A stretch of DNA of 64,000 nt from NCBI GenBank assembly GCA_025558095.1, contig JAIVFI010000029.1, positions 434,001-498,000 of the forward strand, given 5' to 3'. A model generated the notes under the pieces. The model was not told the origin of the DNA, searched no databases, and saw nothing but the letters and a program-made list of their open reading frames with translations. This DNA is from Hyaloraphidium curvatum. Taxonomy: Eukaryota > Monoblepharomycota > Hyaloraphidiomycetes > Hyaloraphidiales > Hyaloraphidiaceae. Numbering within the stretch: the stretch's first letter is position 1; every line of letters starts with the position of its first letter. This document shows, one piece after another, positions 5,437 through 54,432 of the stretch. The position numbers were made by a program, and so were the translations under genes.

Positions 5437-5549
5437 TCCCGGGCAGCGCTCTCGAATGTAAATCGTGCTACACTTATCGTCCCGCACTCCCATCCTTTCT
5501 CTCCAAAACCCTGGCAACAAACGACACCAAGATCCCGTGCATCCTGACG

Positions 5550-21800: not shown

Positions 21801-22693
21801 CCGTTGGAGCGCACGTCGAGCGCCCCGCCGTCCGAGGCCATGACGTTGAGCGCGACGATCCTGACCCTGGTGAATCCGGTATTTGACTTGCCGATGACGG
21901 TGACGTTGGAGCCGACGTCGAAGTTGAGCGCGGTCACGTTAAGCTCCGCAACGGTGTCGAGCATGTAGAGGTTGTTGGTCGCGGCGCGCACCGCGGCGTC
22001 GAGGTCCGAGGCCTTGATGTCGACAAAGGCCAGCGCGAGGCGGGCGAACTGCGGCGCGTTCTGCGCCTTGATCTGCCAGGGCAAGCCCGAGTTGGCGGCG
22101 GCGGCGAACGCCTTGGCGTACGCGGGACACTTTGGCGACGCCAGGGTGCCGGGCCTGAGGATGCGCAGGGTGTCGTTGGCTGGCAGCTGGGTGGGCACGG
22201 CGGGGGGGTCGAGGGCGGCGTTGCGGCAGGCGTAGGTCACGCGCACGATCTTGTTCGAGCTGGGGCAGGGGTCGCCGAAGACCGTGCGCACGGCCCAGCC
22301 TCCGGGGAGCGGGGCGCACGCCTGCCTGCCGTCGCAGAGGCCGGCGACCCACGCGGTGAGGGCGGCCGAGTCGCGGGCGTCGAGCGAGCACGGCGCCGTG
22401 TTTACGACCGAGCCGGGGCACGTGGCCGGGTCCGACGCGTTCGCGGCCACGTCGCGGCCGTAGAATGCGGCCTGTACCTGGACGAGCTGGCCGGCAGGGC
22501 ACTGCGGCGCCGGCGCCGGCGTGTTGTCGCAGCCGACGGCAACGAGTCCGGGCGTCGAGAGCGCGATCGGCAGCGCGCCGAGCTGCTGAGCTGCGGCCCG
22601 GACCGGCGGCACGCGGCCCGTGTAGACGGGCACGCCCGACGCGAGAGAGGAGAGTGCGAGCACGAGCGCGGAGATGGCGGCGGCGGAGCGCAT
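18886..22693 (-). CDS. Large secreted protein with SUEL-type lectin domain and long helical region
   Basis: Three exons, 22693-21667, 21616-21119 and 21065-18886, give 1234 residues. Both introns (50 and 53 nt) have GTGAGT donors, CAG acceptors and phase 1. The signal peptide is about residues 1-20. Residues about 65-156 match a SUEL/D-galactoside or L-rhamnose-binding lectin domain: eight or so cysteines, the YGR triplet at 78-80, and FGDPCPSSNKIVRVTYAC with the DPC triplet. A beta-rich, Asn-rich part and a Cys-rich block (exon 2) follow. Exon 3 then encodes roughly 450 residues of long helices, including a hydrophobic stretch in the run EIVIEFLLDIAVAVA, before a beta-rich C-terminus. Helical regions with a central hydrophobic hairpin occur in alpha-pore-forming proteins, but no family assignment is possible by eye. 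Probably secreted and sugar-binding. Confidence 0.75.
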
Positions 22694-36802: not shown

Positions 36803-36942
36803 CAACTCGCGAGTGCATCGCAAGTCGCTCGCGAGTGACTTGCGAGCGACTCGCGAGTGACTCGCGAGTCACTTGCGAGTCAACCGCGAGCCAACCGCGA
36901 GTCAACCGCGAGTCAACTGCGAGTCGAGTCGACCGCGAGTTC
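36803..36942. repeat. Short tandem array of a 10-nt palindromic unit (ACTCGCGAGT)
   Basis: More than ten copies of a roughly 10-nt unit, variants of ACTCGCGAGT and AACCGCGAGT, stand directly before the RT fragment and just after a TATATGG sequence. A related array lies at 45314-45405 beyond the gag side of the element, so the two arrays bracket it. Confidence 0.75.
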
Positions 36943-36947
36943 GCCCG

Positions 36948-39911
36948 CACTTCTCGCAGACGGTCGACGAGCACCTCGTGCACCTGGAGCTCCTCTTTGA
37001 CCGACTGCGCGAGGCCGGGATGACTCTGAAGCTGGCCAAATGCAAGTTCTTCCGCCGCGAGGTCAAATACCTCGGGCATTACGTCACCGCCGACGGCCTC
37101 AAGGTCGACCCCGAGAAGACCCGCGCGGTGGACCAGTTCCCCCGCCCAACGACCAAGAAGGAGCTCCAATCGTTTCTCGGCCTCTCCAACTACTATCGCC
37201 CCTTCATTGCCGGCTACGCCAACATTGCCAGCCCGCTCACCCGCCTGACGCAGGACGGCGTCTCGGTCTCTCGGGCCTGGGACGACGCATGCGAGGCCGC
37301 CTTCCGTATGCTAAAGGAACGGCTTACGTCGGCGCCCGTGCTCCGTCGCCCCGACTTTTCCAAGCGCTTCGTCTTGTTCACGGATGCCAGCGATATCGGC
37401 CTCGGCGCGGTGCTCAGCCAGCGGGACTCCGATGGCAAGGAGTACGTCATCGCCTACGCCAGCCGCGCTCTGCAGCCGAACGAGCGCAAGTGGGACACTC
37501 GGGAGCGCGAAGCCCTGGCCGTTGTTTGGGCATGCGAGCATTTCCGGGCGTGTTTGATCGGGGACGAGTTTGAGGTGGTCACCGACCATAGCGCCCTCAA
37601 ATGGCTCTTGGAGACCTCCAAGCCGGGCCGCCTACAGCGCTGGATCCTCCGGCTCTCGGACTTCAGGTTCCAGATCATCCATCGCTCGGGCAAAGCGAAC
37701 TCCAACGCCGACTTCCTGTCTCGTCAGCTCGTGGCGCCGTCGCCCGACGAGGACGTGCCTATGGGCGACCCCGAGGAAATCTTGGACATCCCTGCCTTTT
37801 GGCCCCCAAACCCTCCCGACCCCTTGCCTTTTTCTTCTTTTTCTGGGGGGGGACGGGCGCCCGGATTCCTCTCCGGGAGTGATCTCGGTCAGACTTCCCG
37901 TTCTTCGTCAACCCCAGTCACCGAGTCAGACTCGGGACGAGCTACTGCGGGTTCCTCAGTCAATTGTGAATCAATGGAGCGAGTGCTGTCTGGCACGGAG
38001 TTCCCGGCCACGGTTGCCGCAGTGGAGGGAACCCTGTGGAGCGATCCGGGGACCCTGCCCGAGGCTGCGGCACCGGAGACGCAGATCCTCCTGCCGATCC
38101 CAACGACGAACGCACAGGTCGACCCGGCAGACGTGCCTGAGCGAGACCTGGCGTTCCTTCATCCGGCACTGCTTGAGGTGCTACCCGATGTCGGGGGCAT
38201 CAGTGCTATTGACCTTGCCGACGTCAGATCCCGGGATGCCCTGCGCAAAGTGCAAGAAGCCGACGTCGAGACCAGCGCGCTGATCCGCTTCGTACGAGAC
38301 GGGGAGCTCCCTCCCAACGTGAATCTGGCCAAATTCTGCAAGAAGTACGGCGAGCAGTACTTCCTCGCTACGGACGGCGTGCTCTGCCGGCGCGATGTAC
38401 TCGCGACTGGTACCCGTCGTATCCCGGTCACCCAGCTCGTGATACCGCACGAGCTGAGGGAGGCCTACCTGCAACGTGCGCACGACGATCCCCTGAGCGG
38501 GCACGTCGGGCGACACCGGGCGTACAGCAATCTGCGGCGCCGCGTATATTGGGTCGGCATGGCGCACGACGTTCGCCGCTGGACGCGAGCCTGCCTTACA
38601 TGCATGACCCGGAAGATGCCTTCGGTATCGAACCAGGGCTTACTGAAATCGGTTCCTCTCACAGGTCCCAACGAGGACATCTACATCGACTACATCGGCG
38701 AGATCAATCCGGCCACGCCCCGCGGCAACAAGTACCTTCTCGTCGTCTACGATCCGTTCACTAAATGGGTCGCGGCGTATCCGACTCCGGACCTCTCTGG
38801 GCCGACGACGGCGAAGCTGCTCTATACGCGATGGATTCTCGAGCACGGTCTTCCGAAGCGGATTCACCACGACAACGCCTCGAACCTGGACAACCATTAC
38901 ATGGAGTACCTGCTCAAGCTACTCGGCATCAACCGGGGCCTGGTCACGGTTGGGCATCCCAGGGCTTCCCTCGCGGAGCGCCCGAACCGGTGGATCATCG
39001 ACGCCCTGAGCGCAGCGGTCTCCAAGAACTACCAGACATGGGACGAGGACATCGTGGGGGTCATCTTTGCCTTCCGGACCTCCATCCACGCGACGACCGG
39101 CGAAACTCCGTTCTTTCTGATGCATGGTCGGGATGCTCGTATTCCGCTCGACCTACTTTACGACGAGACCGAGATTCGCGAGCCAGTGCACCTGCGGGCC
39201 AGCGACGAGGAGGACAAGAAGACAGAGGATGAGCGCCGGCGGACCTACGTCGTGGAGCTCGTGGCGCAGCTTCGTGCGGCCTACGACCTGGTGGCCGAGA
39301 AGATGGCCGCAGCGGCGGAGACTCGGAACGCCAAGGCCAACGCTACCCGGCTTCCGATTACCTTCCGCCCCGGCGACCTCGTGCTCATCTGGGGACCAGA
39401 ACGACCGCGCAAGGGCGAGCCGGGCAAGTTCGTCTCTCGTTATCTTGGGCCCTACCGCATCGAGGAGTCAGGCCACACCGAGCTCACCTGGAAGTGTAGA
39501 CACGTCTACGAGACCGACCACGTCACCACTGTGCATGTGGACCGGCTGGCGCGCTACAAGCCTTGGGAGTCGGCCACCTTCAACGCGCGCTCGTGGAACG
39601 CACGCGCCCCGGAGCTCGCCGCCGGTGAAGAGCTCGATCTCTCGGAACCGGTGAACGAGTTCGAAGAGGAAATCGAGGTCGAGAACGCGCTTGGGAACGA
39701 GCAGGAGTACACCGTCGAGGACATCGTCGGCCACGAGGGCCAGGGTCACGGACTCAAGTTCGAGGTCAAGTGGCGGGGCTTCGCTCGCACGACCAAGCTC
39801 CCTCTGGACATGTTGCACGGCGCCATAGGGATCGTCCGCGCCTATGCCGATCGCGTTGGTCTCCAGCTCCCGACGGGTCTCCCCAGGCGCATGCGGACTC
39901 GGCGTCGCTAG
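36948..39911 (+). CDS. pol: Gypsy pol 3' part: RT thumb, RNase H, integrase, chromodomain (5' truncated)
   Basis: Coding sequence enters without its own start at 36948 (HFSQTVDEHLVHLELLF). RT thumb: KLAKCKFFRREVKYLGH, then FLGLSNYYRPFI. RNase H: LFTDASDIGLGAVLSQ, the ERKWDTREREALAVV motif and TDHSALKWL. Integrase: H-x-H zinc part (DDPLSGHVGRH) with CLTC, then a catalytic core with Asp in IYIDYIGEI, Asp in RIHHDNASN and Glu in PRASLAERPNRW. The D-D-E triad is intact, although the surrounding SD-G-x-x-F and HPQ-x-x-G-Q boxes are altered. C-terminal GPY/F-like LGPYRIEE and a divergent chromodomain (EYTVEDIVGHE, FEVKWRGF) target heterochromatin in related elements. The RNase H-integrase linker (37800-38100) is Pro/Ser-rich. 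Confidence 0.85.
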   Translation, partial: HFSQTVDEHLVHLELLFDRLREAGMTLKLAKCKFFRREVKYLGHYVTADGLKVDPEKTRAVDQFPRPTTKKELQSFLGLSNYYRPFIAGYANIASPLTRLTQDGVSVSRAWDDACEAAFRMLKERLTSAPVLRRPDFSKRFVLFTDASDIGLGAVLSQRDSDGKEYVIAYASRALQPNERKWDTREREALAVVWACEHFRACLIGDEFEVVTDHSALKWLLETSKPGRLQRWILRLSDFRFQIIHRSGKANSNADFLSRQLVAPSPDEDVPMGDPEEILDIPAFWPPNPPDPLPFSSFSGGGRAPGFLSGSDLGQTSRSSSTPVTESDSGRATAGSSVNCESMERVLSGTEFPATVAAVEGTLWSDPGTLPEAAAPETQILLPIPTTNAQVDPADVPERDLAFLHPALLEVLPDVGGISAIDLADVRSRDALRKVQEADVETSALIRFVRDGELPPNVNLAKFCKKYGEQYFLATDGVLCRRDVLATGTRRIPVTQLVIPHELREAYLQRAHDDPLSGHVGRHRAYSNLRRRVYWVGMAHDVRRWTRACLTCMTRKMPSVSNQGLLKSVPLTGPNEDIYIDYIGEINPATPRGNKYLLVVYDPFTKWVAAYPTPDLSGPTTAKLLYTRWILEHGLPKRIHHDNASNLDNHYMEYLLKLLGINRGLVTVGHPRASLAERPNRWIIDALSAAVSKNYQTWDEDIVGVIFAFRTSIHATTGETPFFLMHGRDARIPLDLLYDETEIREPVHLRASDEEDKKTEDERRRTYVVELVAQLRAAYDLVAEKMAAAAETRNAKANATRLPITFRPGDLVLIWGPERPRKGEPGKFVSRYLGPYRIEESGHTELTWKCRHVYETDHVTTVHVDRLARYKPWESATFNARSWNARAPELAAGEELDLSEPVNEFEEEIEVENALGNEQEYTVEDIVGHEGQGHGLKFEVKWRGFARTTKLPLDMLHGAIGIVRAYADRVGLQLPTGLPRRMRTRRR

Positions 39912-39981
39912 TAACACCAACGACGTCTATCCGGTCACAGCACTACCATCTCTGTGCTCCGATCCCCGGCTTTTCACTGAC

Positions 39982-40967
39982 TCAAACCCGACGTACTACC
40001 TCGAGCCTATCCTCGACCCCCTCGAACGCCAACTTGTGATACCCGGACTGAAAATGCGTGTTCAGATTGCCCAGGAGGCCCTTAGCCTTGTGCTTTACCA
40101 GATGGCACCACGGGAACGAGCATACCGCCACTTCGCCCTTGGTGGGGCTCCGGTACAGTTCGCCGGCGTACGTTCCGGCAATCTTCCATCGGAGGAAGGA
40201 GCCTGCCGGCACGGCATCAGGGACCTTCTTCGTCACCCGTTCCGCCTTCAAGCCCCAGACCGGCGACGACTTCTTCATCTGGCACATTCAGTGACGATCA
40301 GCGCTTGTGGGGCGTACTCCCGTCGAGCCGTTCACCTGCGCAATCTGCTCCCGGGCCTCCCCGCGCTGCACCACATGCCCCTCGTCTTTACCTGAAGTTG
40401 CCGTTTGGGCCGTCTGGAAGGCGCTCCCTTGTTCAGTGGCGGCCTCGAAGTCGCCTAAGTGGTCCAGCTCCCAAGAGGGCGCATGAAGCGTGACTGACAG
40501 CACGGGGACTTCGTCGGCCGCCTCGAGCTCCTCCCTCGAGTCCGCCGCCGACTCGCCCTCGCCGACGGAAGGCGCACCCTTCGACGACATCGCCGGCAGG
40601 AAGACGCCGGAGGTCCGGGTTGCGGCCGCGGCCGCGATCGGGTCGTTGCCTCTGGCCCCGCCAGCCTCGCGCAGCTTGGCGGTCCCGCCGGCCTCGCGCA
40701 GCTCGGCGACGAGCCGACGGAGCACTCGGACCTCGACAACGACGTTCCCAGCCTCTTCGGCCAGCGGCAACATCCCGCGCATGGCGGCCAGACGCACCAG
40801 TTGCAGGAAGCAGTCGACCACGTCGTCCTCCTGGCGCGGCGCTGAGCTCCCGTTCGAGGACCACGCCGCTACGCTCTTACCTTGGTGCACAGCAGGACGT
40901 CGAAGGTCGGCAACCGAACCTCGAACCACGAACTCGGCGGGACGACGTTCGGCAGCTCCGCACTCAT
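39982..40967 (-). CDS. Spliced gene with BED-like Cys/His finger lying inside the rearranged element
   Basis: Three exons, 40967-40881, 40830-40336 and 40278-39982, give 292 residues. Introns are 50 nt (GTAAGA) and 57 nt (GTGAAC), both phase 0. The N-terminus (MSAELPNVVPPSSWFEVRL) leads into EDDVVDCFLQLVRL and a helical, possibly coiled-coil segment (NVVVEVRVLRRLVAELREAGG). An acidic Ser/Glu-rich linker follows. The C-terminus has KKSSPVWGLKAERVTK, then C-x4-C with two His 29 residues on (VCSFPWC ... LNTHFQSGYHKL), the spacing of BED-type or other DNA-binding fingers found in transposon proteins. It may be an accessory gene antisense to pol, a remnant of another element, or a host gene. Function unknown. 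Confidence 0.55.
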
Positions 40968-41085
40968 GACAGGCGCGGAGATCCCCCCAGCTCTTCTGGA
41001 CCCTACGTCGCGATCCCCCGCGAGCGCTTTCGTCGACGCAATGGCGTACGGCCCTCGCTCGCGCCCCGTCCCCCGTGGCGGGGAC

Positions 41086-43191
41086 TGGTGACCCGGTGTA
41101 AATGTCGTCGATGAAGACCACCAAGCAGTACCACTGGAGGCCGGCGAGGAGCTCGTCCATGATCCGAGCAAAGGTTGCAGGAGCGTTGGTAAAGCCCATG
41201 GCCATCCGCTCCCACTGGTAGAGACCGCGGTGCGTCGTGAAGGCCGTCTTTTCCTTGTCCTCGTCGGCCACCTCCACGTGCCAAAAGCCGGAGCGGATGT
41301 CGCAAACGCTCCACACCTTGGCCGCGCTGAGGAGAGCGAGAGTGTCGCTTGGGTTCTTCATCGGGTAGACGTCGCGCTTGGTGGCGGCGTTGAGCTTCCG
41401 GTAATCGATCACCAGGCGCCATTCGCCCGAGCCGTGCCCTTTTGGCACCATGATGCAGGGCGTGGCCCAGGGGCTTCGCGAGGGGACGACTACGCCCTGC
41501 ACGAGCAGGTCGTCGATGATCTTGTCCATTTCCCCGCGAAGCCGGAACGGGGTCCGGTACGGCATCTGGTGGATCGGCTTGAGGTCGCCCGTGTCGATCC
41601 GGAAGCGATGGTTGCGCAGCTTGCCGATCCAAGGACCAAACACGTCCCGGTAGCGGTCGCAGAGCTTATGGAAACGAGGTTTGTCCCCCTCGCTCAGGAT
41701 CGTTTGGTCCATCTTGAGCTCGATAGCCTCGACCGGAGGAGGCTCCACGCCGGGAGGCTGAGGTGGTCCAATCGATCCCGGCGAGGGCACCGCGAACAGA
41801 TCGATGGTCTCCTCGACCGTGAGCGTGGATTCGGCCGGTTCGGTGTGGGGCAGCTCGGGCTCCAGCATCGAGATCTGCGCGGGAGCCAGATACGTGGGCG
41901 GTTCCGGAGCGAGAAATCCAGGAATCCGCACGCGGAAGCGGCCGAGGTGGGTGCCCGGGCCGATCGTGACCGGTGTCGTCCCGTAGTTGCGGATGAGAAT
42001 CGGCAGCCGACCGTCTCTGTCGGGCGTCGCCGACGGGATGATGAAGAGGCGATCGAACGGCGAAGTGTTCGGCGTCTCGATGACCCCTGTCAAGTCCATC
42101 TCCACGACGGTCGCCAAGGGAGTCGTCGGGGCCAGCTCAGCGGTGATCGAGACGTCCTCGTTGGGGTAGACCGTGATGGAGGTGGTTGAATGGAGCGGGG
42201 CGACCAGGTGTGATCCGAAGAGCGGTCGCGCAACAATGTGCATTGGCACGACGACCCCCTCCGGATCGTCCTTGAAATAGAGGACCGGCGTCTCCCAGTC
42301 CATCTGAACGCGTAGGGCGGAGAGCCAAGGGGTGCCGAGGATCACGTCGTCCATGAGACCGTCCATGATGGCGACGTCCATGACGCAGTGTTGATTCCCG
42401 ACCAGGATGTCCATCTTAGCAACTCCGCGGACCCACATGGTTCCGCCGGCCGCGGCCGTGCTGAGGGTGCCGAGTGTCCATGGTTTGATCGGTGGCGACG
42501 GGTGGATCCGGCAGAAGAAGGACGACCGAACCGCCACCACTGAGGCACCGGAGTCGACGAGGGCCGCGGGGGTATTCACGCCGTTGACCCATGCGGAAAC
42601 GCGTGCCGCCTGATAGTGGAACTGCACTTGCGAAGTCCACGTCCAGCGATCCGGCGGAGGGGCGACCGGAGCAGGTGGCCGCGGGCGAGGCCGAGGGCCA
42701 GGCAGCGGTGGTCGTGCGTAGGCGGAAGGAGGAGGGGGCCTTTCGAAAGGTCCGGGAACGGCGCGGACGGTCGGGCCCTCGTGCATAGGTGCATCCGCTG
42801 ATCCCGCGTCCGCATCCTGTGCCGCCGGTTCACCGTTTCCCACGACCTCGACCGAGCCGGGCGACGCCGAATCCGCTGCCGGCGGCGGGGCCAGGGTCTC
42901 GTCGATCGGCATGAGCGCCTCCCGCTGCTGACGAACGGCGGCCTGTCGAGCTGCCTCCGCCTCGAGGAAGAGGATGTACTCCGTGCCCCCGAAGGGCCAA
43001 TGATGAACGTGGTCCTCCGCCGTCGGTTCATCGGTCGCGGAATCCGACAACTCCGGCGATCCGCCAGGAGATGAAGGGTCCGTGCCGTCCGGCAGCGGGG
43101 AAGTTCCAGGAAGAGGTTCCACATGTGGTTCAAGAGCTTGGATCTCTGCCCCCCTATGGCCGTGCGGCACTGAGGGCAAAGCTAGTTTTTT
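41086..43191 (-). CDS. pol: Gypsy pol 5' part: protease and RT up to FIDDI (3' truncated)
   Basis: Read by -1 frameshift from gag at 43191. A Pro-rich N-terminal spacer leads to the retropepsin site AALVDSGASVVAV (Asp-Ser-Gly) and a later DDVILGTPWLS strand. RT has fingers and palm motifs MPYRTPFRLRGEMDK, RSPWATPCIMVPK, WRLVIDYRKLNAATKRDVYP, DIRSGFWHVEV, KTAFTTHRGLYQW, MGFTNAPATFARIMD, and the catalytic FIDDI at 41101-41115 (an F-x-D-D form). Directly after GSP (41086) the Gypsy homology ends; the frame runs on to 40288, but only through antisense or unrelated sequence. The missing part of RT is on the opposite strand at 36948. Confidence 0.85.
43144..43191 (-). promoter_or_regulatory. Programmed -1 ribosomal frameshift signal, gag-pol
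   Basis: The slippery heptamer A AAA AAC occupies 43191-43185 in the gag frame and is followed at once by the gag stop TAG. A shift of -1 enters the pol frame exactly. Downstream, CTTTGCCC (43181-43174) can pair over 8 bp with GGGCAGAG (43151-43144), enclosing a 22-nt loop that contains its own GTGC/GCAC pair. The 3-nt spacer is shorter than the usual 5-9. Confidence 0.8.
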
Positions 43192-44837
43192 GGCATCGAA
43201 GGGGTGTTGCCGAGGCGAGACTTCCAGTTGAGTGGGCGGCGGTTGGCATTCTTCTCCAACTCCCAGCACTCGTCCTGAGCATGCCCATCCATGCCACAGA
43301 GATGGCAGTGGCGAGGCTGGAAGCGCTTCTGGTCGCGGTACTCCGAGGTGAAGGGCCGGCGATCCTGGCGCTCCTGCTGCTGGCGGGGCCGATCGATCGG
43401 AGGAGGCCTCGCGGGGGGGTTCGGCCTGGTCTCCGCGGCCTGAACCTGATGGCGAGGCGACGGCAGCAGCTTGGTGATGAGCTCCTTGATCTCGACGAGG
43501 TCGCTGTTCGGCCCCGAAGGCGGCAACGGCTGGCTCCGACGAGACTGGAAGGGGACGAAACGGCGCGGAGGCCGGAACGCAGACTCCCCCGGCGGTCCAC
43601 CGGTGGGCCTGCGCTCTCCCTTAGGCTCCAGCAGCTTTGTGAGAGCCTGCGTATGAGCCAGCAGCACTTCCGTCGTCGCCTTGTCGGTCGCCTTGGAGGA
43701 GCCCGAAGACGAGTGCTGGCCGACCAGAGCCGGAATCTCCGAAATCGAGTTCTGGCCCAGGAAACGGATGTCGCGCGGCTGCGCAGGGCCCGATGCTTGC
43801 ATGACGGTGCGCATCTTCTCGATGACCTTGGTGACGGAAGTGCGGTTGATGAGGTGATCCCCGAGGAGCTCCAGCGCCTTCCCGCGTAGCTCCGGGCGCA
43901 GTCCGTAGAGCAGGTTCTGGCCGTACACGCTGTCTTGCACTTCCCTGGTAGGAAGCTGATCGCCGCAGTGCGAGAGGAAACGCGTCTCGGCCAGGGATAC
44001 GCGGGCAACGAAGGCGTCGAGGGTCTCATCGTTGGTCATCTGAATCGTGTTGTAGTGCCGGCGATAATGCATCGATGCGTCGCGGGGCTCGAAGTGGTAG
44101 CGTAGCCAGGCAAGCACATCGTTCTGGGTCACCGGAGGATAGGTGGCCGTCGCGGGATAGTCCGGAGGGCGGTTCTGCGGCGTGATGTTGTGCCACATTG
44201 CGCGCGGCAGAGGCCCAAGGAAGACCGGGAAGACCTTGACGAGGTTGTTGATGGAGCCGAACGCCGTGAGAACCGTAGTGAGGTCGCGGAAGAAGTCTTC
44301 CGGGTCCTGCGTAGCGGGATCGAAGGGCTGAACAGAAGCAGGCAGCAGCTGAGCCGGGAGCTTGGCGGCTCCGCCCTGGCGATCCGCCTGGGGGAGGCCG
44401 GTGCTTCCATCGTTCGGCGGCTGAGCGCCAACGATGGCCCGTACGGCGTCGACGAACTGCTGCGGCTGGAGACCAGCGGCGGCAGCGTTGACAGCCGGGG
44501 CTTGCTCGCTCCGCTGACCCTGCTGCTGTGCGGCGAGCTGCTGGAGCTGCTGCGCTGCAAGCTGCTCGGCGGCGGCTTGCTGTTGAACTTGGGCAGCTGG
44601 CAACTGCTGAGCGGTCTGTTGCGCCACGAGCTGAGCGGCAAGCTGATCGGCGACGGCTTGCTGGGCGGCTTGCTGGGCGGCGAGTTGGGCGACGTCGTTG
44701 GCGGCGGCGCCGACTTGCTGGATCGCGGCCTGCGCAGCTTGGATAATCGCCTGGGCCTGCGGGTTGTTCTGCAAATCGTTAGCTTCCTGAGGCTGCTGAA
44801 CCTCCTGCTGAGGGGCGGCTTCTTGAACGGGGTCCAT
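43182..44837 (-). CDS. gag: Gypsy gag polyprotein with CCHC knuckle
   Basis: 551 residues from ATG 44837 (MDPVQEAAPQQEVQQ); codons further upstream are not ATG. The first 170 residues are Gln/Ala-rich, likely coiled coil. The retrotransposon gag core follows (FDPATQDPEDFFRDLT, LPRAMWHNI, LAWLRYHFEP, LDAFVARVSLAETRF). A basic, Pro-rich stretch leads to the zinc knuckle C-H-L-C-x4-H-x4-C in CHLCGMDGHAQDEC. It ends in frame with the slippery site used to enter pol. Packages element RNA in virus-like particles. Confidence 0.85.
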   Translation of the reverse strand: MDPVQEAAPQQEVQQPQEANDLQNNPQAQAIIQAAQAAIQQVGAAANDVAQLAAQQAAQQAVADQLAAQLVAQQTAQQLPAAQVQQQAAAEQLAAQQLQQLAAQQQGQRSEQAPAVNAAAAGLQPQQFVDAVRAIVGAQPPNDGSTGLPQADRQGGAAKLPAQLLPASVQPFDPATQDPEDFFRDLTTVLTAFGSINNLVKVFPVFLGPLPRAMWHNITPQNRPPDYPATATYPPVTQNDVLAWLRYHFEPRDASMHYRRHYNTIQMTNDETLDAFVARVSLAETRFLSHCGDQLPTREVQDSVYGQNLLYGLRPELRGKALELLGDHLINRTSVTKVIEKMRTVMQASGPAQPRDIRFLGQNSISEIPALVGQHSSSGSSKATDKATTEVLLAHTQALTKLLEPKGERRPTGGPPGESAFRPPRRFVPFQSRRSQPLPPSGPNSDLVEIKELITKLLPSPRHQVQAAETRPNPPARPPPIDRPRQQQERQDRRPFTSEYRDQKRFQPRHCHLCGMDGHAQDECWELEKNANRRPLNWKSRLGNTPSMPKN

Positions 44838-45313: not shown

Positions 45314-45405
45314 CGAGTCACTTGCGAGTCGCTCGCGAGTCGCTCGCGAGTGACTCGCGAGTCACTCGCGAGTCGATCGCGAGTCGATCACGAGTCGATC
45401 GCGAG
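45314..45405. repeat. Second short array of the CTCGCGAGT palindromic unit
   Basis: About nine 10-nt units (variants of GTCGCTCGCGA and GTCGATCGCGA) stand 14 nt after a TTTATATATCCC sequence, mirroring the array and TATA-like sequence at 36.8 kb. It may belong to the LTR of the retroelement or be a separate satellite used as target. Confidence 0.7.
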
Positions 45406-45480: not shown

Positions 45481-45582
45481 GGACGGCCGCGTGACTGCCG
45501 GCCGAGACCCACGCGGCGCCGGCAAAAACGCGATCAGCGCGAGGAGCGCGAACAGGAGGACGGTGAGGCGGCGGGGAGCCAT
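45481..45582 (-). pseudogene. Truncated secreted-peptide gene (exon 1 only)
   Basis: Exon 1 (45582-45513, MAPRRLTVLLFALLALIAF) and part of intron 1 match the gene at 46998, including its one-base deletion. The copy stops at the duplication boundary 45481, so exons 2 and 3 are missing. Confidence 0.75.
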
Positions 45583-46025
45583 CGCGGTTTAGGTGTCGTT
45601 TGCGGGGGTGTGCAGGTTCGGTCCGAGCGGCGAGGCCTTGTCGGGCCGAATGCTGCGGGCTGGAGATGACGGACGTAGTAGTCACCAGTCCCTGAACTAG
45701 AGAGGTTCTACCGACGCTCGAAACTGTTTATCGGTTACACAAAGTGTGTCAGGGTAGACTGCCGGCTCCGATCGGAGCGTGATTGGAGCCATTTGGTGTT
45801 CCCCGACGTCGCCAGGTGGCCTGCCAAGGGACCTTAATTGCCGCTTCCCGTTTCAGTCAGGGCACGGCGTCGGGACGGTCCATCAAGCATCTGACGCGGC
45901 GACAGCACGTAACAAAACAAGCAGGCGTCCTTTCGTCGGTCGACGCTGCGCTTCTGTATGGAAGCCCGCAGAAACACCGGTCGCGAAAACTCTCGGGCTC
46001 CCCGTCCACCTTTGCAACATCCCGT

Positions 46026-46371
46026 TTACACCGGCACACGGCGCTCCAGCCCCTTGTCTGCCTCGTAGATGCAGCTGACCATGCCGTCGACCGCGCCGAC
46101 GCCTGCGGTGGCGCGAGTGAGTGACTCGCCGGAGTCGGTGCGGGCGCCGGAACGAACAGCGCTCGCCCTCGACGCACTCGGCGCACGAGGATCTCTTGAC
46201 GATCCGGGCGTCCCCGGTGGGGGCGGCGTTGCTGTGGGAGGGGGCCGGGCGAGTCAGGGGACGTTGAGGGATCGCTGTGGCGCGCCACGGCGGGACCCAC
46301 GCGGCGCCGGCGAAGAGCGCGATCAGCGCGAAGAGCGCGAAAAGGAGGACGGTGAAGCGGCGGGGGGCCAT
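46026..46371 (-). CDS. Secreted Cys4 prepropeptide, copy A
   Basis: Three exons, 46371-46301, 46231-46158 and 46102-46026; introns of 69 nt (GTGGGT, phase 2) and 55 nt (GTTCGT, phase 1); 73 residues. Residues 1-24 (MAPRRFTVLLFALFALIALF then AGAA) form a signal peptide with an Ala-x-Ala site. A short propeptide NAAPTGDARIVKR ends in Lys-Arg, a Kex2-type site. The predicted mature part begins SSCAECVEGERC and continues to AVDGMVSCIYE, giving cysteines spaced C-x2-C-x5-C-x9-C. It ends DKGLERRVPV. No known family is recognised. It could be a signalling peptide, an effector or an antimicrobial. The unspliced frame is also open because intron 1 is a multiple of three, but the pyrimidine tract and conserved AG favour splicing. 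Confidence 0.75.
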
Positions 46372-46648
46372 GGCGGCGCTTGGCTGCGGAAGGCAATTTG
46401 GAGTCTCTGGGGGATGGGGAGGCTGGTGTCGAAGGGTCACAGGTCCCTGACCGAACAAGTGCCCCGACCCTCCAATCTTCTTCCGCGTCAGTCAAGAGAT
46501 GGTGTGGGCGACAAAGTTAAGGAAAGGCGACATGTTGGACCCCGGCTTTACATTGGAACCCTCTGTAAGCACTCTTTGAGATAACTGTTGAAAGCCAACG
46601 CTTGGGAAACAGCGCTTGAAGCTCCGCATAACCTCTGCACCCTCTTGT

Positions 46649-46998
46649 TTATACCGGCGTGCGGCGCTCCAGCCCCGTGTCGGCCTCGTAGATACAGCTG
46701 ACCATACCGTCGACCGCGGCGACGCCTGCGGGCGGGTTACCGCGTGAGGGGCCCGCGAGAACCGGTGCGGGTCAAGGAACCCACAGCGCTCGCCCTCGAC
46801 GCACTCGGCGCACGAAGACCTTTTGACGATGCGGACGTCCGGGGCGGGGGCGGCGGTGCTGTGGTTGGGCAGGGTGTGTGGCGTCAGGAGCATGAGGGAC
46901 GGCCGCGTGACTGCCGGCCGAGACCCACGCGGCGCCGGCAAAAACGCGATCAGCGCGAGGAGCGCGAACAGGAGGACGGTGAGGCGGCGGGGAGCCAT
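46649..46998 (-). pseudogene. Secreted Cys4 prepropeptide, copy B, one-base deletion in exon 1
   Basis: Exons 46998-46929, 46858-46785 and 46725-46649. Exon 1 is 70 nt instead of 71: compared with copy A one base is missing in the T-run before GCCGGCGCCGC, so splicing intron 1 (70 nt) throws exon 2 out of frame. Exon 2 (ending VKRSSCAECVEGERC) and exon 3 (AAVDGMVSCIYEADTGLERR) are otherwise intact. Retaining intron 1 restores the frame, which would give a 96-residue form. Either a recent pseudogene or a variant that keeps its intron. Confidence 0.6.
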
Positions 46999-47441
46999 CG
47001 CGGTTTAGGTGTCGTTTGCGGGGGTGTGCAGGTTCGGTCCGAGCGGCGAGGCCTTGTCGGGCCGAATGCTGCGGGCTGGAGATGACGGACGTAGTAGTCA
47101 CCAGTCCCTGAACTAGAGAGGTTCTACCGACGCTCGAAACTGTTTATCGGTTACACAAAGTGTGTCAGGGTAGACTGCCGGCTCCGATCGGAGCGTGATT
47201 GGAGCCATTTGGTGTTCCCCGACGTCGCCAGGTGGCCTGCCAAGGGACCTTAATTGCCGCTTCCCGTTTCAGTCAGGGCACGGCGTCGGGACGGTCCATC
47301 AAGCATCTGACGCGGCGACAGCACGTAACAAAACAAGCAGGCGTCCTTTCGTCGGTCGACGCTGCGCTTCTGTATGGAAGCCCGCAGAAACACCGGTCGC
47401 GAAAACTCTCGGGCTCCCCGTCCACCTTTGCAACATCCCGT

Positions 47442-47787
47442 TTACACCGGCACACGGCGCTCCAGCCCCTTGTCTGCCTCGTAGATGCAGCTGACCATGC
47501 CGTCGACCGCGCCGACGCCTGCGGTGGCGCGAGTGAGTGACTCGCCGGAGTCGGTGCGGGCGCCGGAACGAACAGCGCTCGCCCTCGACGCACTCGGCGC
47601 ACGAGGATCTCTTGACGATCCGGGCGTCCCCGGTGGGGGCGGCGTTGCTGTGGGAGGGGGCCGGGCGAGTCAGGGGACGTTGAGGGATCGCTGTGGCGCG
47701 CCACGGCGGGACCCACGCGGCGCCGGCGAAGAGCGCGATCAGCGCGAAGAGCGCGAAAAGGAGGACGGTGAAGCGGCGGGGGGCCAT
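47442..47787 (-). CDS. Secreted Cys4 prepropeptide, copy A'
   Basis: Exons 47787-47717, 47647-47574 and 47518-47442. Identical in predicted protein to copy A, being its counterpart 1416 nt away in the tandem duplication. 73 residues: signal peptide, Lys-Arg site, four-cysteine mature peptide. The identical 5' and 3' flanks suggest it carries the same promoter. Confidence 0.75.
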
Positions 47788-48063
47788 GGCGGCGCTTGGC
47801 TGCGGAAGGCAATTTGGAGTCTCTGGGGGATGGGGAGGCTGGTGTCGAAGGGTCACAGGTCCCTGACCGAACAAGTGCCCCGACCCTCCAATCTTCTTCC
47901 GCGTCAGTCAAGAGATGGTGTGGGCGACAAAGTTAAGGAAAGGCGACATTTGGACCCCGGCTTTACATTGGAACCCTCTGTAAGCACTCTTTGAGATAAC
48001 TGTTGAAAGCCAACGCTTGGGAAACAGCGCTTGAAGCTCCGCATAACCTCTGCACCCTCTTGT

Positions 48064-48409
48064 TTATACCGGCGTGCGGCGCTCCAGCCCCGTGTCGGCC
48101 TCGTAGATACAGCTGACCATGCCGTCGACCGCGCCGACGCCTGCGGTGGCGCGGGTCAGTGACTCGCCAGAGTCGGTGCGGGCGCCGGAACGAACAGCGC
48201 TCGCCCTCGACGCACTCGGCGCACGAGGATCTCTTGACGATCCCGGCGTCCCCGGTGGGGGCGGCGTTGCTGTGGGATGGGGCCAGGCGAGTCAGGGGAC
48301 GTTGAGGGATCACTGTGGCGCGCCACCGCGGGACCCACGCAGCGCCGGCGAAGAGCGCAATGAGCGCGAAGAGCGCGAAGAGCAGGATAGTAAGGCGGCG
48401 GGGGGGCAT
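48064..48409 (-). CDS. Secreted Cys4 prepropeptide, copy C
   Basis: Exons 48409-48339, 48269-48196 and 48140-48064; introns 69 nt (GTGGGT) and 55 nt (GTTCGT). 73 residues, starting MPPRRLTILLFALFALIALF. The propeptide is NAAPTGDAGIVKR. The mature part SSCAECVEGERC...GMVSCIYEADTGLERRTPV combines an A-type middle exon with a B-type last exon, which suggests gene conversion or crossing over between copies. Confidence 0.75.
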
Positions 48410-48953
48410 GGCGGTGATTGGGTGTCTTTTGCGGCGGAGTGGGGGTTCGACCGATAGTAAGTGTGTCTTCGGGCCGAAACTGTGGGCTGGACAAAGGGAC
48501 GGCCGGCCCACAAGCGAATATTACGTCGACACAAACTGGACGATGATTGTCAGGTTCGGGCTGCCAGCTCCAATCGGAGGGAGATGACTGGTGTCTCCGA
48601 GCGCTGGATAGTCGCTGTGGGGTCGTGGCTGGCCTAGGGACGCATCCTGACGGAGTCGGTCAAGCACCGAAGTGGGCGATTGAAAGCACATTTCCACGAG
48701 TCTACACTGCTTCCTGAAACATTCGTGGCAACAAGGCTTGAGACCAGCGCTTGAAGCATCCTCCCCGTTCGCAGCATCCCGTTCCAGGTCGGGGCACGGC
48801 AGCAGAACTGTCCATCAAGGCGCTGATGCGGGCGACATCATGGAGTTAAACAGAGCAGGCGTCCTTTTCGGTCGACGCCGCGCTGCTGTATTGATGTGAA
48901 AACCCCACAGTCGGAGCAATTGACCTCTCCGTCCACCCTTCCCAACCCGTTGT
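48410..48953. other. Intergenic region carrying a diverged 3' flank of the peptide genes
   Basis: 48780-48945 resembles the flank downstream of copy A (45850-46020): shared GGGCACGGC, GTCCATCAAG, GCAGGCGTCCTTT-CGGTCGACGC and CCGTCCACC blocks. Whole gene-plus-flank units have therefore been duplicated. No extra gene is seen. Confidence 0.5.
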
Positions 48954-49317
48954 TTACACCGGCGGCGCACGGCGGTCCAGCTTGTTTTCGGCCTCGTAGA
49001 TGCAGCTGACCATGCCGTCGACCGCGCCCACGCCTACGGGGGGGTGGCCGTGTGAGCCGCCCGGAAGCCCGGTCCGGCCATCTCGCAACTTACAGCGCTC
49101 GCCCTCGACACACTCGGCGCAAGACGACCTCTTCACGACGTGGACCTTGTCGGTGGGGGCGGCGGTGCTGCGGCGGCGGACGGGGCGGCGTGGCGCGTGA
49201 GCGGCGGCGGGGCAACTAGGCGGACCGCCCGCCTGGCGGGACCCACGCGGCGCCGGCGAAGACCGCGACGAGCGCAAAGAGCGCGAGGAGGAGGAGCGCG
49301 AGGCGGCGGGTGGCCAT
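48954..49317 (-). CDS. Secreted Cys4 prepropeptide, copy D
   Basis: Exons 49317-49247, 49167-49094 and 49033-48954; introns 79 nt (GTGGGT) and 60 nt (consensus GTAAGT). 74 residues. Here intron 1 is required, because the unspliced frame stops early, which confirms the three-exon model for the family. Signal peptide MATRRLALLLLALFALVAVF-AGAA; propeptide TAAPTDKVHVVKR; mature part SSCAECVEGERCVGAVDG then MVSCIYEAENKLDRRAPPV. Cysteine spacing as in the other copies. Confidence 0.75.
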
Positions 49318-49557
49318 GGCGTGAGTGTTCTCGGCGGTGCGGGTGAGTGATTGGACGGTGTCAATAGTCGGCGTGGCTGGGGAGGGACTTCCGAACGTCG
49401 ATGGGATAGTGGGGGCGGACGGAGTCACCGGCCGGCCACACAGAAAGGGCCGATTCGGTTACTGCAGCTGGGCGGGCAGATCATTGATTCTCATAGATCA
49501 AGTCATGGCCAGCTCCGACCCTCGTCATCGCCGTTGCGACGTCGGCCCCGGGGGCAG

Positions 49558-52500
49558 TCACCCCTCCTGGGAAGCCTCCCCCGCCCATCCGGCCATCCAA
49601 CCCCCCATCTCGTCCCAGTGTTCCCCCTTGGTGTACTCGTGCAGCCCTAGCATCCCCTTGAGCCTCAGCATCACGTACTGCCGCGCCATGTACCACGTGT
49701 CGAGCGCGAACGCACATTCCTCCTTCCCCTTGGACCCCTTTTCCCGCAGCCGTCCCGAGAGGTCCGCGTCCGAGGGTACCTGGCAATCCGGCAGCCCGCG
49801 GTGAGGACGGAGCACCCTCGCCGTCGCACCGGCCGGGAACTCCGGGTCCCCCGCCGCGGCGTAGAACAGCGGCCCCCGGGTCGGCAGGGGATGCGGGAAC
49901 GAGAGCGCGCTCATCATCTGCCCCGTGGCCGACTCGAGCGGCCCGGCGATCTCGCCGTTGTTGTCCCACGCGAGGTCGTGCCGCGGGTGCAGTAGCGCGG
50001 AGCCTTCCGGGCACGCGGCCAAGGGCGGGGCGCCAGCGCGGCCGGTCCCGTTCGCGCAGGCCGGCTGGTAATCCCGCAGCGCGAGGTCAGCACCGGGGTG
50101 CTCCACCAGCAGCCCCACGGACCGCAGCGCCTCGACCACCATCCCCCCAGCCGCCCGCGAAAAAACCCACGGCGCCTCCTCCGCGAACGTGCCCCCGCAC
50201 ACTCCACTTGGCATCCACGCGTCCGTCACGATCCGCTTCTCCGGCACCCCGGCGCGGAGCAAGGCCGTCCGCAGACCGGCGATGTTGTACCCGTCCATCC
50301 CGTTGGCCACCGACCCCGTCAGCCACAGGGGGGGCACCGCCTGCTTCCCGCGGAGCTCCGGCATCCCCAGCCGCCCCCGCTCCGGTCCGAGCGCCGCGAC
50401 GACCTCCTCTTCCAGCCGCGCCGCGCACGCCCTGTCCTCCCTCAGGCTCGCCCCGCCCTCTTGCACAAGCGTGGCGTTCAGATCGGGCACGGCCATCTGG
50501 AGCACCGCCGCGTCCACCCGCATCCTGCGCACCACCACCCCCGAGAACCTCGACCCGCTCGACAGGCCGAACGAGAGCACCGGCACGCGCTGCCCGGCCG
50601 CCAGCCCGCGCGCGCGCCGCACGTGGGCCAGCGCCGCGGCGGCCGAGACCGCGGTGACGCGCAGGTCGAAGTTGCCGCAGCTGTCCTCCAGGTCCTGGTG
50701 CGCGCACTTGCTGTCGTCCAGCAGCCCCAGCGGCACCGCGACCGGCATCAACCCCCTCCTCTCTAGCGCGCGGATCAGCCCGCGGAGCAGGGGCATCCGC
50801 GAGGCGAACGCGGGCCCGTTGCACGCCGTGCCGAAAACCAGCGCAACCCCGACCGCGCGCTCGGGGGGCAGCGCGATCGAGACCCAGGGTGCGATCCCCG
50901 ACACGTTGCGGCCGTCCCGCGAGGTCAAGTTGAACCCCGGCTCCAGCGCCCGCAGCGCGTGCACGGGCTCCCCCGGCGTCGGGGTCCACGCGTCCCCGCC
51001 GGCTTCGGGGGGCAGGCACTCGTCGATCCCCTTGACCACCTTCGGCAGCCCCATCCTGTCGTGCGGCGGAACCGGCGCCGTAGCATTGCACCCCGCCACC
51101 CTCCCCGCATGCTCCCCGCACGCGGCCCAGAGCATCCACGCCGTCCCGCCCCGCGCCTCGGTCCCCCTGTCCCCCGGCACGGGCAACCGCCTGTAATGCA
51201 GCCCCGCGTAGTGCGCCAGCTGGAGGTAGTACCACCCCGCGGCCTCGTGCCCCGCCGGCACCGTTTCCGCGAGCGCCGAGCCCGCGCGCATGGCCAGCGC
51301 GTTGAGGAGGCCGGAGCCGTGCGGGGCGAGGACGGCGGAGGAGGAGGCGAAGAGGGCGAGGGAGGCGCGGACGCTCAGGTTGCCCGGGAACGGGATCGGA
51401 TCGAGGGCGTAGGACCGGAGGAGGAGGGAGAGGGCGGCGAGTTCGGAGGGGGGTTGGCCCCGCGAGGAGGCGGCGGAGCGGTCGACGAGGATCACCCTGT
51501 TTGCGCGGCCGGGGTGTTCGACGTCGATCTCGGGGGCGAGGGAGCGCATGGCGTCGCGGAGGGCGAGCAGGTGCACGGGGTGCGTGCGCGCGCCCACGAG
51601 CGGCTTGTCCAGCAAATGGGCAGTGCGCGCGGCGACGCGGCCCGAGACGAGGCGGTCCGCGAGGCCGAGGTGCGCGAGCCATTCCACGGCGTAGGGCAGG
51701 GTGTCGTTGTTGCCGGGCGCCCAGCGGCGGGCAAAGTGGCGCGGGACGTGCACCAGAACGCCGGGGTTGGCTTTGAGGTACGGCACGAGAGGGTATATGC
51801 GGCCGACGAAATCGGCCGAGAACCAGTAGTAGTTGTCGGCCGGGGGCACGACCACCACGACCTCGTCCAGCACGTGCAGCCTCACCGGCCCAGTGCCTGA
51901 GGCATTCAGGGCCTCCCTGTCCCAGGCCATCACCGCCTCATGCGGTTCCGGCGTGTCGTCGTCGTGGGGCATCACCAGCTGCGAGACGAAGGTGCAACCG
52001 CCGCCGGGAGGGGGGTACGGGACCTCGGCGAGGTCGGGGCCGGCGTAGGGAGGCCAGAAGTGGACGAAGCGGCCGTCGGGGGCGCGCCGGCGGAGGTCAC
52101 GCAGCGGCTCGGGGCCGCCCATGGCTGATTCCAGGTGGCGTTCTGTCCGATCCGGCGACACGTTGCGGGCGGCCTCGGGTTCCGGGTCGAACAGCTCGAC
52201 AAGCACCCCCTCGTACCCCTCGGCTGTCCCGCGCCGGGCCCGGTTGGGCCTCACGGCCTGCAGCATGCCGTTGGGGTTCACCACCACGCCGTGCGCTGTG
52301 AGCACGCCCGGCAGCGCGTGGGCAAACGCGGGGGCGTTGAGCGCCGCGCGCACGGCGGCGGGGTCGTTGCGCCCCGCGGCGTCCGCCACCTCCTTCGTGC
52401 GCACGTTCATGACCATCAACGCGGGGTCGATTGGCGGCACGGGCACCTGGCGCAGCACGGCCTGGCGGGTGACGCCGGGCAGGGAGAGGTCGGCGGTAGC

Positions 52501-53079
52501 TCCGTGCAGGCTCGGTGCGGCGGCGAGGGCCCGCACGTTATTGGACATGCGGTCGGCGACCTCGGAGCGGCGCAGCGGCACGTCGCAGGGCACATTTTGG
52601 AGGAGCGTCTCCCACAGTTCGCCCGGCGGCGTGCGGTCGCAGCGGCGGACGACCGACAGCGATTGCAAAGGCGGCGGCGTCCAGGGGCCGCCCGACGCGT
52701 CCAGATTGAGGGCGTCCGCGATCGCCGCCACCGACACCGCGGCCACGTCTGCCGGCAGCGGCCCCCGCCCCGCCTCGGCCGCTGTCCGCAGTGCGTCCCA
52801 TTCGGCGCTCTCCGCGACAACGTCGAACGCGTCCGCCCAGTCCAGCGGCGCCAGCGTGACGAGAGATCCTTTAAAATTCGCGGCATCGGAGAGCGCGAAC
52901 GGCCTCAACGCCTCGCGCACGGCAAACAGAGCAGGGGAACGGGATCCCGCCTTGGCGGCCGCAGATGTCCACGCCGACAGCGGCACGCGAACCTCGTCGT
53001 GCCGCCGCGCCGCTGCAATGGCGAGCACTAAAAGCGCAACGGCCGCCGCCGTCCACCGCACAGCGAACCGGGGGCGCAT
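49558..53079 (-). CDS. GT61-like glycosyltransferase fused to an alpha/beta-hydrolase-like domain
   Basis: Single-exon, 1173 residues from ATG 53079 (MRPRFAVRWTAAAVALLVL), whose hydrophobic segment at about 8-25 suggests a type II Golgi membrane protein. Residues about 400-640 resemble GT61/DUF563: YYWFSADFVGRIYPLVPYL, RVILVDRS, and APHGSGLLNALAMRAGS near 584-600, the HGAGLxN-like motif. The C-terminal half (about 720-1050) looks like an alpha/beta hydrolase: VGVALVFGTACNG, a nucleophile elbow in LSFGLSSGSRF (G-L-S-S-G near 838-842), the strand AVPPLWLTGSVANGMDGYN, and cysteines nearby. Such a fusion could transfer a sugar and remove or add an acyl group, but that is inference. It sits between members of the peptide family. 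Confidence 0.75.
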   Translation of the reverse strand: MRPRFAVRWTAAAVALLVLAIAAARRHDEVRVPLSAWTSAAAKAGSRSPALFAVREALRPFALSDAANFKGSLVTLAPLDWADAFDVVAESAEWDALRTAAEAGRGPLPADVAAVSVAAIADALNLDASGGPWTPPPLQSLSVVRRCDRTPPGELWETLLQNVPCDVPLRRSEVADRMSNNVRALAAAPSLHGATADLSLPGVTRQAVLRQVPVPPIDPALMVMNVRTKEVADAAGRNDPAAVRAALNAPAFAHALPGVLTAHGVVVNPNGMLQAVRPNRARRGTAEGYEGVLVELFDPEPEAARNVSPDRTERHLESAMGGPEPLRDLRRRAPDGRFVHFWPPYAGPDLAEVPYPPPGGGCTFVSQLVMPHDDDTPEPHEAVMAWDREALNASGTGPVRLHVLDEVVVVVPPADNYYWFSADFVGRIYPLVPYLKANPGVLVHVPRHFARRWAPGNNDTLPYAVEWLAHLGLADRLVSGRVAARTAHLLDKPLVGARTHPVHLLALRDAMRSLAPEIDVEHPGRANRVILVDRSAASSRGQPPSELAALSLLLRSYALDPIPFPGNLSVRASLALFASSSAVLAPHGSGLLNALAMRAGSALAETVPAGHEAAGWYYLQLAHYAGLHYRRLPVPGDRGTEARGGTAWMLWAACGEHAGRVAGCNATAPVPPHDRMGLPKVVKGIDECLPPEAGGDAWTPTPGEPVHALRALEPGFNLTSRDGRNVSGIAPWVSIALPPERAVGVALVFGTACNGPAFASRMPLLRGLIRALERRGLMPVAVPLGLLDDSKCAHQDLEDSCGNFDLRVTAVSAAAALAHVRRARGLAAGQRVPVLSFGLSSGSRFSGVVVRRMRVDAAVLQMAVPDLNATLVQEGGASLREDRACAARLEEEVVAALGPERGRLGMPELRGKQAVPPLWLTGSVANGMDGYNIAGLRTALLRAGVPEKRIVTDAWMPSGVCGGTFAEEAPWVFSRAAGGMVVEALRSVGLLVEHPGADLALRDYQPACANGTGRAGAPPLAACPEGSALLHPRHDLAWDNNGEIAGPLESATGQMMSALSFPHPLPTRGPLFYAAAGDPEFPAGATARVLRPHRGLPDCQVPSDADLSGRLREKGSKGKEECAFALDTWYMARQYVMLRLKGMLGLHEYTKGEHWDEMGGWMAGWAGEASQEG

Positions 53080-53305
53080 GGCCCGTGCGGGGCACCGGCC
53101 GTGCACGAGTCACGCGTCGCCCGTTGCCACAAGACACAAGACACCCTTCTCCGAACGGGTCAGTGAGGTGGTCACACGCAAGCGAACGTAAGTCATTCCT
53201 CCACATGTCCTACAACTTCTTCCAAAATAGATACATGGAACAGTGGGCTGGCGTCGCCCGCATCCGGTCGCCGAGCACACGCCTTTGGCACCCCTCCTTG
53301 ACCCC

Positions 53306-53681
53306 TCAAACGGCCCTCCTCTCCAGCGCCACCCTGTCCTCGTAGATGCAACTGACCATCCCGTCGACCGCGGCCACGCCTGTTCGGGTTCCGGGTAGCG
53401 TGTGAGTGGGTGTCCACTGAGTGGGTGTCCACCGTGCGCGGGGAAGGAAGGGGGACCCACAGCGTTCGCCCTCGACGCACTCGGCGCACGAGGACCGCTT
53501 GACGATCTGGACTTCGCCCGTGGGGGCGGCGGTGCTGTGGGCGTGGGGCGACGGTGGAGAGGGAGGGGTGAGTGGCGTTGGGGATAGCGTTGACCCGGGC
53601 GGGGGGAACGCACGCGGCGCCGGCGAACAGCGCAAACAGCGCGAGCAGCGCGAACAGGAGGACGGCGAGGCGGGGGGCCAT
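53306..53681 (-). CDS. Secreted Cys4 prepropeptide, copy E
   Basis: Exons 53681-53614, 53534-53461 and 53379-53306; introns 79 nt (GTGCGT) and 81 nt (GTGGGT). 71 residues. Signal peptide MAPRLAVLLFALLALFALF-AGAA, propeptide TAAPTGEVQIVKR, mature part SSCAECVEGERCVAAVDG then MVSCIYEDRVALERRAV. It lies beyond the glycosyltransferase gene, so the family is dispersed and not a single tandem block. More diverged introns indicate an older copy. Confidence 0.75.
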
Positions 53682-54100
53682 CTTCGGTGGTGATTCGCGC
53701 GGGGTGCAGGTGGGTGGGGGATGTCTTGGGGACCGAAGGGGGACGGCTGACGTAAAAGCCGTCGGTCCGAGGAGGGGCGTTTTGGCGACGGCCAAGGGAG
53801 GAGATGGCGGCATCGGGTGGCGGAGCATCCTGGATTGCCTGAACTGGATGGAGGTCCCTGGGCGGGGCGCGGGCCTCGTTTTTCCCCGGCGGCCGCGGAT
53901 CCCCGAGCCGGCCCAGCACCCGTCTGGAGATCGACCTCGCGGGCCATCGTCGATCCGTTCATGGCCGTGCAATCCCTCCAATAGCCCGTGTAGTTCCCCC
54001 CACCGGCTCGCCCTCCAAAAGATATGGCGCCAACCCACTCTTTCCACCCCGGGACTTCCCCGTCCCTTGCCGACGCCGCGGCGTCCCGCCCCGCCATCCC

Positions 54101-54432
54101 TCACACCGCGTTCCCCCTCCTCTCCAGCGCCCTCTCGTAAACGCAGCTGACCATCCCGTCCACGGCTGCCTCGCCTGCACGTTCCCCGCGGGGATCAGCC
54201 GACCGGTGCTCCAGGGGCGAGAAGAGCGACCCACATCGCTCGCCCTCGAGGCACTCGGCGCACGACGACCGCTTGACGATGCTGCCTTCCGCGGTGGGGG
54301 CGGCGGTGCTAGCGAGCGGGGTGAGCGGCGCCGGGACCGCGACCGCCCAGCAGAGGGAGGGACCCACGCGGCGCCGGCGAGCAGGGCCAACAGCGCGAGC
54401 AGCGCGACGAGGAGGAGGGTAACGCGTGCCAT
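54101..54432 (-). CDS. Secreted Cys4 prepropeptide, copy F
   Basis: Exons 54432-54368, 54308-54235 and 54174-54101; introns 59 nt and 60 nt, both with GTGGGT donors, the first with a TAG acceptor. 70 residues. Signal peptide MARVTLLLVALLALLALL-AGAA, propeptide TAAPTAEGSIVKR, mature part SSCAECLEGERCEAAVDG then MVSCVYERALERRGNAV. The most divergent member, yet the Lys-Arg site, all four cysteines, the DGMVSC block and the 74-nt middle exon are kept. Confidence 0.75.

Follow-up and report, generated by a model that had tools for sequence, protein, structure and literature searches.

The 64,000-nucleotide stretch analysed here (the window; 66.2% GC, in a 31.9 Mb assembly of 55 contigs) carries a cluster of very small four-cysteine genes, which raises the question of whether they form a family of their own or part of a wider one. 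A preliminary description had proposed eight copies, six of them intact, each with three exons under 80 nt and encoding precursors of 70-74 residues. This was borne out in nearly every respect. Within 45481-54432 the minus strand carries seven three-exon copies and one lone exon-1 remnant, and the spliced frame is open in six of the seven (70, 71, 74, 73, 73 and 73 aa). Exons measure 65-80 nt, the longest reaching exactly the 80 nt below which all had been placed. The introns, 55-81 nt long, all have GT..AG ends and lie in phases 2 and 1. The features are as follows.

54101..54432, minus strand: g1, intact, 70 aa; exons 54432-54368, 54308-54235 and 54174-54101
53306..53681, minus strand: g2, intact, 71 aa; exons 53681-53614, 53534-53461 and 53379-53306
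48954..49317, minus strand: g3, intact, 74 aa; exons 49317-49247, 49167-49094 and 49033-48954
48064..48409, minus strand: g4, intact, 73 aa; exons 48409-48339, 48269-48196 and 48140-48064
47442..47787, minus strand: g5, intact, 73 aa; exons 47787-47717, 47647-47574 and 47518-47442
46649..46998, minus strand: seventh copy, out of frame; exons 46998-46929, 46858-46785 and 46725-46649 (by homology, coordinates by eye)
46026..46371, minus strand: g6, intact, 73 aa, protein identical to g5; exons 46371-46301, 46231-46158 and 46102-46026
45481..45582, minus strand: exon-1 remnant with the start of intron 1; exon 45582-45513 (by offset from the seventh copy)
45481..48449, no strand: tandem duplication with an offset of 1416, in which 45481-47036 matches 46897-48449 (repeat finder and alignment)

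The six intact frames give five distinct proteins, since g5 and g6 (at 47.7 kb and 46.3 kb) encode the same one. Exon 1 of the seventh copy has 70 nt against 71 in its siblings, and the frame is consequently lost after splicing. The tandem duplication is 94.6% identical over the whole alignment, with 100%, 100% and 99% identity in listed stretches of 300, 300 and 197 nt; its left edge cuts the exon-1 remnant. Remnant exon 1 is identical to that of the seventh copy over the stretch listed by the repeat finder and, because the sequence from 45481 repeats that from 46897, has the same one-base-short exon 1. A further intact full copy was found outside the window, on contig C36.

The surroundings of the cluster are mixed. 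A single-exon glycosyltransferase-61-like ORF (49558-53106) lies between g2 and g3. Just past the left edge of the cluster is an array of an 11-bp unit (CGAGTCGCTCG-like, 45314-45405), and pieces of a Ty3-type retroelement (reverse transcriptase, RNase H, integrase and aspartic protease) adjoin the cluster on both strands at 36873-43269. Further off, a minus-strand ORF at 21644-22693 joins a signal-peptide-like start to a SUEL lectin domain of the rhamnose-binding type, a domain unusual in a fungus. At 4999-7835 (minus strand) an ORF with a PRiA4_ORF3 domain adjoins an overlapping MYND-finger ORF. Zn_clus and Fungal_trans occur together in one ORF, which points to a fungus; the kexin described below is compatible with this without being specific to fungi.

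Coding potential was assessed by global identity and Nei-Gojobori dN/dS for g1-g5 and the C36 copy (15 pairs). In 14 of the 15 pairs, coding sequences were 72-84% identical and introns 49-67%; the exception was g4/g5 (coding sequence 92%, introns 94-95%). All 10 pairs among window copies gave dN/dS of 0.20-0.63, not the value near 1 that had been named beforehand as the mark of non-coding frames, and the five pairs involving the C36 copy gave 0.46-1.30. Arginine codons of the dibasic sites alternate between AGR and CGN, with arginine retained, at both sites described below. These data bear on the possibility that the cluster is decaying debris, largely or wholly functionless, of fused genes whose cargo was lost. 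The out-of-frame copy, the exon remnant, the recent duplications and the 1.30 reached against the C36 copy would all suit such decay, but six frames are intact, the distinct window copies show low ratios, cysteines and dibasic sites are kept, and introns diverge more than exons in all pairs except g4/g5. We regard debris as very improbable.

All six proteins share a hydrophobic start ending in AGAA, a short linker ending in [IV]VKR and the segment SSCAEC-x5-C-x9-C; the C-x2-C-x5-C-x9-C spacing read earlier is thus correct in every intact gene. Each precursor contains one such Cys4 unit. A second dibasic site follows Cys4, where the tail reads L[ED]RR plus 2-4 residues, the last of which is V. 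This tail site bounds the window peptide at its C-terminal side. The C36 copy has AGVA, SKR and LHRR at the positions of AGAA, VKR and the tail dibasic. This second site (L-[EDH]-R-R), the C36 copy and the large module family described below all go beyond the preliminary description. A start resembling a signal peptide was judged by eye in the six window genes, and a Kex2 motif (KR, RR or LxxR) follows the pro-region in all six proteins. Secretion and Kex2-type cleavage, both suggested previously, are still predictions; they fit the signal-like start, [IV]VKR before SSC, L-x-RR after the last cysteine and the presence of kexin-like genes in the genome.

Searching the genome with the joined small peptide returned the window copies together with matches on C36, C45 and C15. 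By eye, the C15 gene seems to run on across an intron into an EGF-like stretch, and its N-terminus used as a query gave 54 matches at E<=10 in the same genome. With a module query, 155 matches were obtained at E<=1, including 122 at E<=1e-3 (the search scored 150 of 153 candidates, and 122 is the count from the match listing); the reversed query gave none in this genome. The 122 include at least two loci repeated from one contig to another (C30/C48 and C44/C47), and the identity of these module loci indicates that small contigs may be redundant haplotypes. The module was present in all 45 loci fetched for checking in batches of 12 and 33, which were hand-chosen from the match list, with a few at E>1e-3 and four duplicating earlier loci. 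In the loci read, it sits behind a signal peptide and ahead of varied C-terminal parts. The main find is therefore not the cluster itself: it is an apparently undescribed large family of predicted secreted proteins with about 100 or more members.

The module was characterized in 54 sequences extracted by one pattern, 49 of them with both halves; seven variants added by hand brought the set to 61. The family core is F-x-R-S-C-x2-C-x5-C-x13-C...L-Y-R-R-Y, and the fuller consensus F-x-R-S-C-x2-C-x5-C-E-[FY]-x-Y-P-G-x-P-E-G-x-V-A-C-V precedes L-Y-R-R-Y and then the cargo. C-x2-C-x5-C-x13-C spacing was seen in 43 of the 49. Under a simple ad hoc hydropathy rule, a hydrophobic signal-like start could be modelled upstream in 42 of 49 loci. 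Tails among the 54 read LYRRY (45), LYKRY (4), LFRRY (3), LYRRW (1) and LYRSY (1), and those of the hand-read variants LYRRY (three), LLRRY, LYRHY, LYERY and RYRSY. The tail dibasic [KR]R is thus found in 53 of 54 modules, or 57 of 61 with the variants. At the other boundary, arginine occupies the position of the VKR arginine in 45 of 49 modules and is absent in four; the site before Cys1 is dibasic in 32 and not in 17, and combines Arg at P1 with an aliphatic residue (L, I, V, M, A or P) at P4 in 40. Pfam analysis of 46 downstream exons (E<=0.01) returned PAN_4 (6), PAN_1 (4) and PAN_3, WSC, Dickkopf_N and zf-HYPF (1 each), with more than one PAN model possible for the same exon; most of the cargo had no Pfam match.

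Gene structure ties the window genes to this family. In the window genes an intron interrupts the Cys3 codon in phase 1. The same codon is interrupted in 35 of 54 modules (32 in phase 2, 3 in phase 1), with the intron absent in 14 and unresolved by script in 5, the C45 gene included; the intron-finding scripts searched at the Cys3 position itself. A sign independent of those scripts is that 89 of the 122 genome matches, by our own count, start within query residues 15-20; Cys3 is residue 19. For 19 of 49 loci the best model places an intron close to where the signal peptide ends, a position shared with the window genes; these one-intron models, which are among the 42 with a signal-like start, were chosen for best hydropathy, so that the count of 42 is biased. 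Exon order is alike in both forms: signal peptide, then linker with Cys1-3, then Cys4 with the tail. The C45 gene links the two directly: IVKRSSCAEC is followed by a phase-1 intron that splits the Cys3 codon, and LYRRY and a cysteine-rich tail come after it (splice sites by eye).

Profile comparison agreed with this. An HMM of the 49 modules scored the six small proteins at 13.5-21.3 bits, and the best of 300 Cys-fixed shuffles per protein reached 11.6-15.1 bits; every real score topped its own shuffles, thinly for g2 (13.5 versus 13.4). The small form has neither tyrosine of LYRRY and is four residues shorter between Cys3 and Cys4, and L-x-R-R is retained in the six small-family sequences compared. 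These differences could mean that the window genes are an independent Cys4 family of secreted signalling or antimicrobial peptides whose likeness to the large family is chance or very remote. The x9 gap between Cys3 and Cys4 against mostly x13, the missing LYRRY and the modest profile scores argue for such independence; the C45 gene, the Cys3-codon intron in both forms and the similar exon order argue against it, and we consider it improbable. The gene models, the genome-wide recurrence of the module, the Cys3-codon intron in both forms and the link gene are direct observations from the sequence. On this footing, the window cluster appears to be a cargo-less, tandemly repeated version of a module that stands at the N-terminus in what looks like a very large family of secreted proteins. 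The cluster had been called a new-looking family, which is fair as regards Pfam, NCBIfam, PDB and a literature string search; it is apparently not self-contained.

Module genes concentrate near contig ends, which may not be telomeres. On the 42 contigs >400 kb from which the expectation was derived (C21, for one, was excluded), 29 of 117 matches are no more than 25 kb from a contig end against 8.1 expected, and 68 of 117 within 100 kb against 32.5. After merging of matches <10 kb apart, 48 of 93 fall within 100 kb against 25.8 expected. The window cluster itself lies ~106 kb from its contig end, and the C36 copy ~19 kb from its own.

Candidate processing enzymes are encoded in the genome. P_proprotein matches occur at 11 places, three of them strong and two of the 11 being parts of one C17 gene region. 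Kexin-like frames on C21, C33 and C17 combine P_proprotein domains with subtilase-like motifs (motifs by eye); the C21 frame, the sole one compared with PDB, has yeast Kexin as its best match (E 5.6e-63). Among other enzymes of the assembly, a PAS-like region accompanies two adjacent nucleotide cyclase ORFs on contig C13, one cyclase on C23 has a hemerythrin-like tail (both by eye), and no rhodopsin-cyclase fusion was seen by eye in the cyclase frames of 5 of 12 matches. According to passages of PMC8528282, many fungi have just one Kex2 homologue, and Kex2 favours Arg at P1, Lys or others at P2, and Leu or an aliphatic residue at P4. By sequence pattern, that motif fits L-Y-R-R, I-V-K-R and most monobasic V-L-F-A-R sites before Cys1.

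We hypothesize that the window cluster comprises free-standing secreted copies of the convertase-bounded N-terminal pro-module of the large family, a reading to which we give moderate confidence. The signal peptide would be removed in the ER and the four cysteines would pair into two disulfides. A Kex2-like protease would cut between [IV]VKR and SSC and again after L[EDH]RR, and trimming would leave a 29- or 31-residue core peptide that starts at SSC and stops just short of RR. In members of the large family, which carry the module between signal peptide and cargo, it would most likely be cut off between LYRR and Y before the cargo acts. The free copies would then put out the module without cargo, and it might serve as a secreted peptide, help folding in trans or compete with the fused form.

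What follows the tail dibasic complicates this scheme. The next residue is Y in 53 of 54 modules and W in one; this Y is as conserved as the Arg and is not required by the Kex2 motif, which speaks against cleavage being the only explanation. The tyrosines are kept in the tails that have lost the dibasic (4 of 61: LYRSY, LYRHY, RYRSY and LYERY), and LYRRY may therefore have a structural or binding role, either in place of a cut site or in addition to one. The module could accordingly be a permanent N-terminal domain for binding, anchoring or sorting (through LYRRY, for example) that stays on the mature proteins, the free peptides being ligands or decoys of the same partner. Variable P2 residues at the site before Cys1 would also be in keeping with a retained domain. 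Yet the small family drops both tyrosines and still keeps L-x-R-R in each of the six sequences compared, its Arg codons switching, and L at P4 with R at P1 suits Kex2 as portrayed in parts of PMC8528282. A permanent domain is in our judgement unlikely. The convertase-bounded pro-module can be extended to a fuller picture, which we put forward only tentatively: a module preceding >100 secreted proteins with unrelated cargo, placed towards chromosome ends, would be cut at both ends to give cargo and peptide, and the window cluster would express the peptide alone, which would act in trans on the fused proteins or serve as a secreted signal.

Several known systems invite comparison. Oomycete RXLR-dEER effectors have a common N-terminal module, diverse C-termini and a big gene family; here the conserved element is instead a four-cysteine module with LYRRY, in a fungal-looking genome. 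The Kex2-processed pro-domain (K2PP) effectors of plant-pathogenic fungi, as described in parts of PMC8528282, resemble the large family in having a signal peptide, an N-terminal pro-region, an LxxR or dibasic site and varied mature proteins. They are, however, a class defined by processing, whereas here one conserved four-cysteine module, with cleavage predicted, recurs at 122 matched places and also occurs alone. Their pro-domains often have no secondary structure, according to passages of the same source. Kex2-processed repeat proteins (KEPs), in the relevant passages of PMC6339444, are likewise secreted precursors with Kex2 sites, but carry repeated peptides, against one per window precursor, which places the window genes outside the repeat-based definition given there. 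Nothing in Pfam or NCBIfam passed curated cut-offs for 19 module sequences scanned singly (best E 0.0096, Inhibitor_I36, one member). An identity as NrdR zinc ribbon or Inhibitor_I36 was rejected as chance (E ~0.01, single members only). A profile of the 19 sequences had no sequence match in PDB (best E 3.2), and one intronless family member had none in the viral, bacterial and archaeal collections of IMG/VR and GTDB genomes, a weak test for a fungal protein. The string LYRRY was not found in the literature searched, and word searches for similar systems gave nothing relevant among the papers listed.

The role of fungal K2PP pro-domains is called unknown in a passage of PMC8528282. As the module exists both fused and alone, their function is directly testable in this genome. 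Module genes are easily split by gene finders, the intron often lying inside a cysteine codon. Conserved N-terminal modules of large secreted families, oomycete RXLR being an example, have served as entry points to whole secretomes. A module common to apparently >100 secreted proteins would likewise be a handle for annotating the secretome of the source fungus.
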